From the NCBI GenBank assembly GCA_003970805.2, contig CP051152.1:3038001-3102000 (forward strand): 64,000 nt of DNA, written 5' to 3'. Position 1 is the stretch's first letter, and every line of letters starts with the position of its first letter. The notes beneath the pieces were generated by a model, which was not told the origin of the DNA, did not search any database, and worked only from the letters and a program-made list of their open reading frames with translations. Made by a program: the position numbers and the translations under genes. Below, piece by piece: positions 9,698 through 24,863 of the stretch. The stretch comes from Undibacterium piscinae (GTDB lineage: Bacteria > Pseudomonadota > Gammaproteobacteria > Burkholderiales > Burkholderiaceae_D).

Positions 9698-10540
9698 TCA
9701 GCGCTTGCTAGCGTAAGCCGCCGCTCCGTATAGTCCAGCATCATGCCCCAAGCTAGCTGCGACTAGTTGACACTGATAGATGGGCGGGAATTTTTTTATC
9801 TCGTCTTCTAAGCGTTGCAGATAACCGACACGCAAACCAAGGCCACCGCCTACGGCTACTTTTTGTATGCCTAGCATGACCACCAAATCGGCTATTTTTT
9901 TTGCTAATTCCCGGATGCCGCTACGATACAAAGCCTCGGCCTTGCTATCGCCAGCATCGGCAGCATCGCATAATAATTGCGCATTCGCATAGCCATTTTT
10001 TAGGGCCAGTTTAGCTAAGGCGCTGCCTGAGGCCAGATCTTCCAGCATCTGACCGTTCTCCGTGAGGGTTTCGCCTAGTTCGGCCTCATAGCCATTGCTT
10101 GCCAAATGCAGGCGCCCATTTAACACTAGGCCAGCACCAACTGCGGTCGAGACTGTCACAAAAAGAAACTGTTGGCAGCCGCGCCCTGCGCCAAAAACAT
10201 ATTCACCCCAGGCTGCGGCACGGGCGTCGTTGATCAGGGACACTGTATGCGTGGTTTTTTCTGATAAGGCGCTAGCCAGAGGGAAATTTTTACATCCACG
10301 CAAAATATTTTCATTCTCGGTGTGTATGCACTCACCCACGATGAGCGCAGCAAAGGCTATGCCTATCGGTGCCTCTATCGTGCTGATGGGCGCATACAAA
10401 CCCAGCATAGTTTCTAACATCGCATTCGGCCCTAGCTGGGCTGGAGTTGGCGCCTCGTCACGCCAGGCTATTTTTCCGTCTTCAAATAAGGCGATCCGGC
10501 TATTTGTGCCGCCGATATCAAAGGCAATTACCTGATTCAT
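9698..10540 (-). CDS. ROK-family sugar kinase (probable glucosamine/N-acetylglucosamine kinase)
   Basis: Cytoplasmic kinase of 280 residues. The ROK N-terminal ATP-binding loop is DIGGTNSRIALF, and the catalytic aspartate lies in LINDARAAAWGEY, followed by GAGRG. The zinc-binding CxCGxxGC motif of most ROK kinases is replaced by GETLTENGQMLEDLASGSA, so the zinc site is missing. The ATG overlaps the stop of the GH9 gene (TGATG), giving tight coupling. Position after a GH9 glycosidase and an oligosaccharide importer suggests it phosphorylates the released monomer, glucosamine or GlcNAc. Glucose or ManNAc cannot be excluded from sequence alone. It is the last gene of the operon; the decayed sensor kinase follows. 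Confidence 0.82.
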   Translation of the reverse strand: MNQVIAFDIGGTNSRIALFEDGKIAWRDEAPTPAQLGPNAMLETMLGLYAPISTIEAPIGIAFAALIVGECIHTENENILRGCKNFPLASALSEKTTHTVSLINDARAAAWGEYVFGAGRGCQQFLFVTVSTAVGAGLVLNGRLHLASNGYEAELGETLTENGQMLEDLASGSALAKLALKNGYANAQLLCDAADAGDSKAEALYRSGIRELAKKIADLVVMLGIQKVAVGGGLGLRVGYLQRLEDEIKKFPPIYQCQLVAASLGHDAGLYGAAAYASKR

Positions 10541-12246
10541 CACGGCTCCTCACTCGGTAATTGCTGCGCCAGTGCGTGAAATAACCAGGCACCATGCGGT
10601 ATCCATTGCTCACTCCAACGCCATGAATGCATAGGTTCGCTCTGCTCAGGCATACGGAAATCGATATCTTCCTCATTGTCTTGACCAGAGGTGATGCCAT
10701 TGCAAACGCCACCAGGAGCGTTCCAAAAGCCCTTGGCATACTGAGGATTATTATGCCCGAGACCTTGCATCATGCAGGCATCGAAAGGGTTAAAACCAAA
10801 AATCCAATCCAAACAAGAGCTGGCATATTCTTCCAGTTCTGCGCACAGTTGCTTATCTGCGACCAGATGTTTGCTAGCCAATTTCGACGCTGATGCCAGC
10901 GAGCCCAGTCTGGCGTTTTCGCCTTGCCACCAATAGCCGCTTTCATTTTGATGCGGAATAAAGAATTGATTGCGCCCTTCCTGACCCGGCATCGCCACAT
11001 GCTGGCGTGGATAACGGAAGGGGTTGGAGCTTGCATGCAGGCTAATCGCAATTTCGTGGCGCAGGCCAATTTGCAAGCCGTGTATGCAGGCCGTGAACAT
11101 GGCCGACTCTGGCGCGACTTCCATCCAGCGCATTAAGGCGAGGTAAGGTAAACCAGCTTCGGCCGCATGGAAATAACTACGGGTTTTTTCATCATTCGCC
11201 CAAAACCAGCCAGCCTCACTCTGACGACTCAGCAAATTCTGCGCACGCCGCTCGGCTGCCGAGGCGTATACCGATTTTGCGGTGGCGGCGAATAATTCAC
11301 AGGCTGCCAGCAGCGCGCAATAATCGTCAATGATGTTTTCTGTGCCGTCATCCAAATAGCTAGTGTTATGCACTTCAAGATGGGCAAAGGCGCGTTCGGC
11401 TGCAGTCAGATAGGCGCCGCGCGTATAGCTGCCATCACGCTGTAACTGGCTGGCACGTGCCAATGCGGCGATCGCGCTGCCGGCACCTTGACGATAGCCG
11501 GATTGATAGCTGTCAAACTTATGCCCTTGCTGCGTGGTGTAACTGCAAATGTCGCGCTGTTCTACGTCTTTGCTCCAGCGATCAAATACGGTCATGTAAA
11601 AATAGCCAGCGGGGTCTAACATGCGCATCAAAAAATCAGCTCCATGCAGTGCTTCATCCAGCATGCGGTCTTCTAACCAGACTGATTGCCTGGGCATACG
11701 GGCATAGCCATCCAAGAGATTCCACACCACTTGCGGGGTTTGTTGTGGATTCATGAAGTTGGCATAGGACAGATGCGACAAATATTTAGAGGCGTCGCCG
11801 GAAGCATCATACCAACCACCGTGCACGTCCACACGTTGTGCGCTGCCGAGCTTTGGACGCGCATAATCGGCCGCCTCGAACATGCCACCGCAACGTTGTG
11901 ATTTTAAATAATGCACCAGATCCGAAATATGTTGGCCATCATAAATCGCCTCAGCAATAGCAAATGGTTGCGACATCAGGGGCGGGCTGATTCCGTCAAC
12001 CAGGAGGGAAAATTTACCGCTTTGCTGTAAGGCGCTAAAGTCTGCTTCAAAAAATAGCCAATCACGCCATTGCGCAACCGCACCCAGCGCTGTTAACGGC
12101 CCCTGAAACACGATCTGTCTAAGATCCGCATCGATCACAGAAAACTGCATTGCTGACAGTGTATTGAGATCTTTTTCACTGCAAAGCAGCAGGGCCTTTT
12201 TTTTCGCTAGACTTTGATAGCCTAGATGATTGTGGAGAATTTTCAT
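10540..12246 (-). CDS. GH9-family glycoside hydrolase, probable cytoplasmic exo-beta-glucosaminidase
   Basis: A 568-residue enzyme without a signal peptide. It begins with the Ig-like CelD_N domain (MKILHNHLGYQSLAKKKALL) of GH9 enzymes, followed by the (alpha/alpha)6 barrel with the general-base region DVHGGWYDASGDASKYL. The C-terminal region includes FGFNPFDACMMQGLGHNNP and the acidic stretch DNEEDIDF, where the acid Glu is expected. Cytoplasmic GH9 enzymes of this style in Vibrio-type chitin gene sets act on glucosamine oligomers from the non-reducing end; I infer the same here because a GH46 chitosanase is nearby. Cellodextrin activity is the alternative. It overlaps the ABC ATPase gene (ATGA) and the kinase gene, so it is embedded in the import operon. 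Confidence 0.82.
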   Translation of the reverse strand: MKILHNHLGYQSLAKKKALLLCSEKDLNTLSAMQFSVIDADLRQIVFQGPLTALGAVAQWRDWLFFEADFSALQQSGKFSLLVDGISPPLMSQPFAIAEAIYDGQHISDLVHYLKSQRCGGMFEAADYARPKLGSAQRVDVHGGWYDASGDASKYLSHLSYANFMNPQQTPQVVWNLLDGYARMPRQSVWLEDRMLDEALHGADFLMRMLDPAGYFYMTVFDRWSKDVEQRDICSYTTQQGHKFDSYQSGYRQGAGSAIAALARASQLQRDGSYTRGAYLTAAERAFAHLEVHNTSYLDDGTENIIDDYCALLAACELFAATAKSVYASAAERRAQNLLSRQSEAGWFWANDEKTRSYFHAAEAGLPYLALMRWMEVAPESAMFTACIHGLQIGLRHEIAISLHASSNPFRYPRQHVAMPGQEGRNQFFIPHQNESGYWWQGENARLGSLASASKLASKHLVADKQLCAELEEYASSCLDWIFGFNPFDACMMQGLGHNNPQYAKGFWNAPGGVCNGITSGQDNEEDIDFRMPEQSEPMHSWRWSEQWIPHGAWLFHALAQQLPSEEP

Positions 12247-23890: not shown

Positions 23891-24017
23891 AGACATCAGT
23901 AGATATCCGGATCGACTGGCAAGTATGGGATAGGTAGGATAGATTTTGATGGGATAAATTTCCCATCAAAAATCTTATAAATCAAAGATGAAAATTTATC
24001 CAGAGGAGAATAGTTTG

Positions 24018-24863
24018 ATGAATACAAAATTAAGGAAAGTCGCTCTTAACCTGAGCCTAAGCTTATTGAGTGCGAGCGCTTTGCTTGCCTGTGGCGGCGG
24101 GGCGGTATCGGAACAGGGCACGCAACAAGCGCAGGCACTTGCGGGGAAACTTAGGACTAACTCTGTCGATCTCAACGAGGCGACTAAAAAAGAGCATGCT
24201 CAACAAATTGTAGCTGCGGCAGAAAACAGTACTTTACTCTGGCGTACCAGGTTCGAATACATAGAAGACATCAAAGATGAGCGTGGCTACACTGCCGGGA
24301 TAATTGGCTTTTGTTCTGGTACAGGTGACATGCTAGCTATCGTGAAAAAATACACAGCCCAATATCCTGGTAATGGTCTCGCATCTTATTTACCGGCGCT
24401 GGAGCTGGTCAATGGTAGTGAGTCACATGAGAGGCTGGATCCTGATTTTCCGGCGGACTGGAAACGTGAAGCCGCGCTGCCTGCTTTTCAAGCTGCACAA
24501 ATAAAGGAACGCGATGACAGCTATTTCAATCCATCGGTAAGCGAGGGGAAAAAAGATGGCCTACGCGCACTTGGGCAATTCATTTATTACGACGCTGCAG
24601 TTATGCACGGGATGGACGAAGTGGAAAAATTTCGTGCCAGAGCAATCTTAAAATCCCCCACCCCAGCACAGGGCGGGAATGAAGTTAGCTATCTGTCCGC
24701 CTTCATGGACGAACGTGTCGCGTTTATGGAAAGTGAGGAGGCACACAAGGGAAATATAGACCGAGTGCAAGACGGGCCGCGTAAATGGCTGGCAGCGGGT
24801 AATCTGGATTTGAATACACCGCTCAATTGGCGTGTCAACGCGCAAGATTTCAGTATTCCTTAG
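24018..24863 (+). CDS. GH46-family chitosanase, predicted lipoprotein
   Basis: Endo-chitosanase of 281 residues that cleaves beta-1,4-linked glucosamine polymers. The N terminus is a lipoprotein signal (SASALLAC, lipidated Cys25), so the enzyme should be anchored to a membrane, probably the outer one. The catalytic domain starts near residue 55. AAAENSTLLW holds the acid Glu69 and IEDIKDERGYTAGIIGF holds Asp87; their 18-residue spacing equals that of the Streptomyces N174 pair Glu22/Asp40. Other family blocks are FCSGTGDML, YFNPSV, LGQFIYYDAAVMHG and SPTPAQGGNEVSYLSAF. The ATG follows AGAGGAG; a second ATG ten codons upstream is less well placed. It lies between the IS30-split repeat and an intact copy. 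Confidence 0.93.
   Translation: MNTKLRKVALNLSLSLLSASALLACGGGAVSEQGTQQAQALAGKLRTNSVDLNEATKKEHAQQIVAAAENSTLLWRTRFEYIEDIKDERGYTAGIIGFCSGTGDMLAIVKKYTAQYPGNGLASYLPALELVNGSESHERLDPDFPADWKREAALPAFQAAQIKERDDSYFNPSVSEGKKDGLRALGQFIYYDAAVMHGMDEVEKFRARAILKSPTPAQGGNEVSYLSAFMDERVAFMESEEAHKGNIDRVQDGPRKWLAAGNLDLNTPLNWRVNAQDFSIP

Follow-up and report, generated by a model that had tools for sequence, protein, structure and literature searches.

Genes and enzymes of the island

The window analysed here is a 64,000-nucleotide stretch of contig CP051152.1 from Undibacterium piscinae, and its positions 9698-24863 hold an island of genes that, judged from sequence, is likely to be an inducible regulon for the utilisation of chitosan oligosaccharides. 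Calls of open reading frames (ORFs) and Pfam matches located there each of the genes that a first-pass annotation had listed (a GH46 chitosanase, a TonB-dependent receptor, an ATP-binding cassette (ABC) importer, a GH9 enzyme, a ROK kinase, an HGSNAT-like acetyltransferase and a major facilitator superfamily (MFS) transporter), and also two that it had not, a transposase and a truncated sensor kinase. The minus strand carries, in order, the binding protein, two permeases, the ATPase, GH9 and ROK; the receptor and the HGSNAT-like protein lie on the plus strand and are followed by the MFS gene (minus), the transposase and the GH46 gene (plus). The features are as follows:

8827..9744, minus strand: N-terminal part of a sensor histidine kinase (membrane anchor and dCACHE-like sensor domain), disrupted in this assembly; behind ROK, cut near 8507
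9698..10543, minus strand: ROK-family sugar kinase, probably a glucosamine kinase, without the CxCGxxGC motif (Pfam ROK, 161 bits)
10540..12246, minus strand: GH9 enzyme of the exo-beta-glucosaminidase/glucosidase type, no signal peptide seen (homology, Pfam)
12243..13370, minus strand: ABC importer ATPase, MalK/UgpC type (Pfam, NCBIfam)
13401..14291, minus strand: ABC importer permease 2 (Pfam)
14239..15156, minus strand: ABC importer permease 1 (Pfam)
15283..16638, minus strand: solute-binding protein, kin of beta-glucoside/cellodextrin binding proteins (Pfam, homology)
16831..16856, plus strand: operator-like site TACC-N10-AGTAGATTTACT between the binding protein and receptor genes (matrix, pattern, core scan)
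16939..16950, plus strand: a further operator core, AGTAGATTTACT, also between the binding protein and receptor genes (matrix, core scan)
17019..19823, plus strand: TonB-dependent receptor, not of the TIGR01782 type of the relatives (Pfam, NCBIfam)
19930..21159, plus strand: HGSNAT/NagX-like membrane acetyltransferase (HGSNAT/DUF5009), His55 aligned with HGSNAT His297 (Pfam, alignment)
21169..22323, minus strand: MFS transporter with no substrate assignment (ORF, NCBIfam and structure searches)
22548..22573, plus strand: operator-like site TACC-N10-AGTAGTTTTACC, upstream of the MFS gene (matrix, pattern, core scan)
22721..23778, plus strand: insertion element, IS30-type by our reading, between the MFS and GH46 promoters (transposase ORF, inverted repeats)
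23876..23887, plus strand: operator core AGTGGATTTACC (one mismatch), 112 bp before the GH46 ORF (core scan)
23988..24863, plus strand: GH46 chitosanase lipoprotein with a lipobox-like LLAC and Glu79/Asp97 at the catalytic positions (Pfam, alignment)

The enzymes are of known kinds. Residues 1-563 of the GH9 protein align to the solved exo-acting GH9 structures 3h7l, 5dgq and 6gdt (E 1e-163 or better), and its homology to the subgroup of VC0615, PBPRA0520 and VP2484 runs from end to end and takes in the loops by which the active site is closed. The VC0615 residues D140, D144, Y148, W220, Y232 and E546, which comprise the catalytic base, the water-binding Asp, the acid and the Tyr/Trp/Tyr of the -1 subsite, are all kept (6/6) as D147, D151, Y155, W224, Y236 and E546. 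By this homology the protein belongs to the exo-glucosaminidase subgroup and is no ordinary cellulase. VC0615 is reported to digest (GlcN)2, the glucosamine (GlcN) dimer, to completion in 30 minutes, to act slowly on cellobiose and to leave (GlcNAc)2, the dimer of N-acetylglucosamine (GlcNAc), undigested (PMC6096475). A GH9 relative at 86% identity is named Undibacterium. Another of the same type (61%, L017) lies on a contig titled as an Actinomycetota metagenome-assembled genome (MAG), reflecting either misbinning or transfer.

The GH46 protein scores 265 bits in Pfam against a cut-off of 27 and has Glu79 and Asp97 at the positions of the catalytic pair of the Streptomyces enzyme. The closest solved structures are the Streptomyces chitosanases 4ily and 1chk. 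Homology supports the first-pass assignments of a glucosamine-type GH9 and a GH46 chitosanase. Since the named GH46 relatives that we noticed among the 120 listed are actinobacterial, at 51-62% identity, the gene may possibly have been acquired laterally. Its ORF has a second ATG at 24018. Of the adjacent insertion element, the transposase ORF (22822-23772) gives matches only to helix-turn-helix domains in Pfam, and the inverted repeats, near 22721-22744 and 23755-23778, agree at 22/24 positions.

The ROK protein (281 residues), the only ROK in the island, shows no helix-turn-helix or other DNA-binding match; the CxCGxxGC motif is missing from it and from 7/7 relatives checked, and its closest solved relatives are N-acetylmannosamine kinases. 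The membrane acetyltransferase reaches 28.2 bits over 102 residues in the HGSNAT family PF07786 (cut-off 22), matches no NCBIfam family at E 0.001, the NagX model NF046061 included. Hence the label NagX/HGSNAT-like holds for the HGSNAT catalytic family and not for strict NagX membership: NagX, a putative transmembrane glucosamine N-acetyltransferase, shares with the window protein the HGSNAT catalytic region and its histidine. Mutant fitness data from five bacteria connect NagX with the use of glucosamine (PMC9007349). The receptor, in which an ATG at 17178 also precedes the signal peptide, matched 18 other families and not TIGR01782; that family was matched by the receptors of the related loci L038 and L019, by a piece in L012 and by the receptor of a separate GlcNAc cluster in the same genome. 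For the MFS protein neither a solved homologue (E 0.1) nor an NCBIfam family turned up.

Operator-like sites and the sensor kinase

A consensus, TACC-N10-RGTAGATTTACY, precedes the importer/receptor, MFS and GH46 genes of the window. It came to light as a 16-base repeat, spotted by eye, in the region that separates the binding protein and receptor genes, and a similar copy stands ahead of GH46; training sites in five related loci (L012-L016) were chosen by scanning the relatives with the window's 12-mer. In these loci the core stands 99-145 bases before the binding protein, and in most sites a TACC lies ten bases ahead of it. The four best sites in the 64 kb under a matrix from the five relatives were 22548 (MFS), 16831 and 16939 (importer/receptor) and 23884 (GH46), the last starting with the TACC of the AGTGGATTTACC core, and 22548 and 16831 exceeded the best of 100 Markov controls (22.1 vs 18.4). 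The composite pattern had 2 matches in the window (0.00 expected) and the core with at most one mismatch had 4 (0.34 expected), a number that 0/100 shuffles reached. These sites support the idea of a promoter signal shared within the island and of common control of its genes. Before the insertion element arrived, the MFS and GH46 genes would have lain side by side and pointed away from each other across two sites, an arrangement like that of the importer/receptor pair.

In the relatives the sites are co-distributed with a regulator. Within 300 bases upstream of the binding protein, the core was found with at most two mismatches in 7/7 testable loci that have a sensor kinase and response regulator (L012-L016, L021 and L035), and in 4/4 loci without this pair the best match had at least three mismatches. 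L021 and L035 make the less circular test, as they took no part in the definition; they carry the core with 2 and 1 mismatches, which 3 and 0 of 300 controls reach. L019, where the binding protein begins only 47 bases after the receptor, was left out.

Two side observations concern promoters elsewhere. In L038, L040, L046 and L076, loci without the kinase-regulator pair, the operator is lacking and a common stretch, GCAAACAAATTGAYTTAAC, lies upstream of the binding protein instead; in L038, L046 and L076 a distant ROK protein, perhaps a repressor, is encoded upstream on the other strand. The exact core also occurs next to an MFS gene, clear of the larger ORFs, both in the sister genome G015 (G015:C1:473883, L184) and in that of U. 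piscinae (G000:C1:1332474, L193), within 3,012-base stretches that are identical between the two; this may be one more member of the regulon.

Behind ROK in the sister genome comes an intact kinase (a 714-residue ORF with PAS, HisKA and HATPase domains) together with a receiver-LuxR regulator, and in L010 kinase and regulator are both present as ORFs. In the window this place is taken by the sensor piece, a PAS fragment in a different frame and a GST gene, in that order. The predicted fold of the sensor part (mean pLDDT 75, from 8 sequences) resembles dCACHE-type domains, the best matches being KinD and amino-acid receptors such as PctA/PctB, with TM scores normalised by query of mostly 0.4-0.55; the fold gives no indication of the ligand.

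The truncation may be an artefact of assembly, because the window alternates, relative to G015, between blocks free of substitutions and differing in indels only (2119-5507, 8507-27442 and 30614-42405) and blocks that are 71-91% identical. The block with the island, 8507-27442, has 0 substitutions in 18.9 kb, and the aligned stretches just outside it are 74-81% identical; a 20-kb stretch elsewhere in the two genomes gave 74-78% in its main matches. At 6/6 borders of the substitution-free blocks the window is without 0.5-1.8 kb that G015 has, and both borders of the island block cut genes, one for the sensor and one for a thiolase. In our view the best account of this mosaic is a joined or reference-filled assembly, and a very recent transfer is possible. 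With a mosaic of this kind the missing regulator is not to be taken as biology. That the island as found in the window is a piece cut from that of G015, of either origin and deprived of its regulator, is a proposition on which we are evenly divided: the block identity, the losses and the cut genes speak for it, the low contamination estimate (0.74%), the single contig and the possibility of a recent exchange between sister species against it, and it is compatible with any functional reading.

At the other border the thiolase gene (26551-27630) overlaps AzlC (27454-28203) and diverges from the G015 gene near 27442; G015 has a 398-residue thiolase ORF and, in between, a further ORF that we read as AzlD.

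Related loci, a second chitosanase and the GlcNAc cluster

A scan of named genomes gave 492 relatives of the GH9 protein, and the loci of the best 80 were analysed, with limited flanks, some of which end at contig ends. In 12/80 the window-type binding protein and two permeases lie beside GH9, more than expected by chance; of these 12, the kinase and the regulator are present in 7, a receptor resembling the L038 one (TIGR01782) in 11, HGSNAT in 6, and NagX and NagB-II in 2 each. In Burkholderiales loci the importer, GH9 and ROK kinase often occur together with a sensor kinase and a response regulator of the LuxR type.

Several of the neighbourhoods, as far as gene content can tell, suit amino sugars better than cellulose. 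In L015 and L016 the next gene behind GH9 encodes a SIS-domain protein similar to NagB-II; in three Chromobacterium loci (L045, L052, L053) and in L064, titled Xenophilus, GH9 stands beside a GlcNAc-type importer and a BadF kinase; many host genera of the loci are named as chitin degraders. NagX-like and NagR-like genes are found no more than about 10 kb from the island in L013 and L021.

GH9 occurs in 3/25 genomes of the genus, and the exo type (600 bits or more, three weaker matches dropped) in 15/399 sampled genomes of the order. GH46 is above cut-off in 7/399, and three genomes have both (G000, which is the window's own, G360 and G402), an overlap with a chance probability of 0.0014, or 0.016 without the own genome; in G402 the two genes are on different contigs. 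At E 1e-230 the window-type receptor was found in the own genome only among the 399, with at most two candidates per genome scored among the matches listed, and in the family of G243 it was found in 0/10 genomes at 1e-180. HGSNAT-like relatives appear in 2/399 genomes at 1e-80 and, with weak NagX-like matches included, in 14/20 chosen genomes at 1e-3. Solimicrobium and Sapientia have a close HGSNAT relative away from the GH9 locus; that of Sapientia aquatica (L172:3084-10702) lies about 5 kb from a GH18 gene. Kinship of the receptor was considered as a sign of chitosan specificity and set aside: Roseateles chitinivorans (71%) and R. chitosanitabidus (69%) are among the listed relatives together with many other genera, which is suggestive at most.

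G360, a Burkholderiales MAG of another family (87% complete, 7% estimated contamination), has a chitosanase at a locus of the same type. Its contigs L019 and L177 overlap by 483 bases, 476 of them identical, and side by side they hold a receptor, importer, GH9, kinase, regulator, ROK and GH46. With E values of 2e-86 or better this GH46 matches 1qgi, 2d05, 5hwa and 7xh0; 4ily, the best match of the window GH46, reaches only 2e-4. An exact operator core stands 112 bp upstream of it, the same distance as before the window GH46. Because the two proteins match different chitosanases, two GH46 subtypes appear, from their sequences, to have joined one type of locus.

The first-pass annotation had called the island complete, with all the steps. 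It holds no glucosamine 6-phosphate (GlcN-6-P) deaminase, and in this assembly its sensor is truncated and its regulator absent, so that description does not stand. A NagB-II is encoded in the separate GlcNAc cluster (L168:722-19794; G000:C1, about 3.95-3.97 Mb), with a TIGR01782 receptor, a NagK-type (BadF-type) kinase, a GntR regulator, NagA, a binding protein, permeases, GH3, an ATPase, and an AmpG-like MFS protein beside a NagX-like one. In an NCBIfam scan of the cluster's proteins only the receptor and NagA rose above their curated cut-offs; the NagX-like gene matches the NagX model at 121 bits, below its cut-off of 480. The importer parallels that of the island, with GH3 in place of GH9. 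Since the NagB-II of the cluster could take GlcN-6-P onward, the island looks like a parallel entry of glucosamine into shared metabolism, incomplete on its own.

Proposed function and its alternatives

In the regulon that we propose, the surface lipoprotein GH46 would cut chitosan, and the glucosamine oligomers would cross the outer membrane by the TonB receptor and the inner membrane by the ABC importer. In the cytoplasm GH9 would free glucosamine units and the ROK kinase would make GlcN-6-P, to be deaminated by the NagB-II-like enzyme of the GlcNAc cluster. The HGSNAT-like protein probably acetylates free periplasmic glucosamine with cytoplasmic acetyl-CoA and so feeds the GlcNAc route. The dCACHE sensor kinase and the LuxR-type (FixJ-like) regulator, which stand behind ROK in G015 and other relatives, probably act through the operator-like sites; their co-distribution with these sites suggests glucosamine or its oligomers as the signal of the kinase and the operator as the target of the regulator. 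This proposal draws on the sequence for gene content, homology, active-site residues, linkage and operator-like sites; the substrates, the direction of flow, the binding of regulator to operator and the roles of the receptor, the HGSNAT-like protein and the MFS transporter are our inferences.

A number of results weigh against it. In the window the kinase is truncated and the regulator absent. Two of the matrix sites, 16939 (15.2) and 23884 (13.6), score within the control range (best-hit mean 12.7, maximum 18.4), and the operator is post hoc, its matrix ranking and composite pattern being partly circular because the training sites were reached through the repeat in the window itself. Genome-wide the core is not clearly enriched (5 vs 2 for the reversed core in G000; 15 vs 3 in G424). 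A scan of 10 genomes gave 43 matches; of 29 loci taken from it, six are importer-promoter sites and the other 23 were inspected; four of these are sites of the locus type, and of the remaining 19 core sites 15 lie inside ORFs and 4 outside (L183, L184, L193, L195). The window's receptor type, MFS and GH46 were found in 0/80 GH9 loci within the flanks examined and so fall outside the conserved set. Finally, the binding protein is nearest to cellodextrin and beta-glucoside binding proteins.

This last point is what chiefly recommends the main alternative, in which importer, GH9 and ROK form a cellodextrin/beta-glucoside system with GH9 as an exo-glucosidase and ROK as a glucokinase; the GH46 gene would then be an unconnected neighbour brought in by the insertion element. 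The binding protein is strongly related to the beta-glucoside binding protein of T. thermophilus and to CbpB of C. thermocellum, described in part of a published account as a cellodextrin binding protein (PMC9601137); the GH9 subgroup hydrolyses cellobiose too (PMC6096475); and GH46 sits behind a transposase. We nevertheless consider this alternative improbable: the neighbourhoods do not support it, for NagB-II follows GH9 directly in two loci, a GlcNAc-type importer and BadF kinase accompany it in four, and many of the host genera are chitin degraders by name; the characterised GH9 relatives favour (GlcN)2; and the operator core stands before the window GH46 and, with another subtype, before that of G360. 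That the island is instead a chitin (GlcNAc) locus with partly deacetylated chitin as a side branch, its receptor and HGSNAT-like protein serving GlcNAc/GlcN monomers and GH9 being minor, would fit the NagX-like and NagR-like genes near L013 and L021, the GH18 gene near the Sapientia HGSNAT relative and the Vibrio GH9 within a chitin operon (PMC6096475), but is slightly more improbable still, given that GH18, GH20 and NagA are absent from the island's Pfam matches, that a separate GlcNAc cluster with importer, GH3, NagK, NagA and NagB-II exists, and that chitosanases of two subtypes appear to have joined the locus.

The chitosan interpretation of the first-pass annotation thus stands in part: glucosamine is favoured over cellodextrins and completeness is lost. 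Its remark that it knew of no standard description of this exact set also needs qualification, since comparable sets are known. The Streptomyces csnREFGHK locus, with a csnA controlled by CsnR, likewise joins an ABC importer for chitosan oligomers, an intracellular glycosidase, a kinase and a chitosanase under the same operator, according to part of a published account (PMC6097792). The island does not belong to that type: there a ROK-family repressor, CsnR, is in control and the glycosidase belongs to GH4, whereas the island has GH9, a ROK protein without a DNA-binding domain, a different operator, an outer-membrane receptor, an HGSNAT-like protein and, in relatives, the sensor kinase and LuxR-type regulator. 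In the Vibrionaceae loci (VC0615, VP2484, PBPRA0520) the GH9 homologue is whole-length, about 46-50% identical in the listed Vibrio/Photobacterium loci, but at the thresholds used these loci showed neither the importer and receptor of the window type nor HGSNAT or the kinase-regulator pair. The ATPases beside GH9 there, which we take to be of the peptide-transporter type, are mostly only 25-30% identical to that of the window. In the parts of the open-licence papers covered by our literature search we found no two-component system for chitosan and no chitosan use by Undibacterium, nor this Gram-negative version of the set with its two-component control and operator.

What is new is the proposed operator with its regulon and the apparent recruitment of two chitosanase subtypes. 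As far as we know, the use of chitosan by Gram-negative bacteria has been described less fully than that of chitin. We tentatively advance, at somewhat under even confidence, the joint reading of a Burkholderiales chitosan regulon with a dCACHE kinase and LuxR-type regulator, a conserved operator, two GH46 subtypes recruited separately together with the operator, and two routes for glucosamine (GH9/ROK inside the cell and the HGSNAT-like protein at the membrane); as part of this reading, and held just as tentatively, its control logic would differ from that of the actinobacterial ROK repressor. A conserved and computable operator would turn a set of related-looking genes into a searchable, testable regulon. 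It would give candidate roles to the unannotated MFS transporter, the receptor and the HGSNAT-like protein, and it draws attention to a sensor whose signal may be glucosamine or its oligomers.

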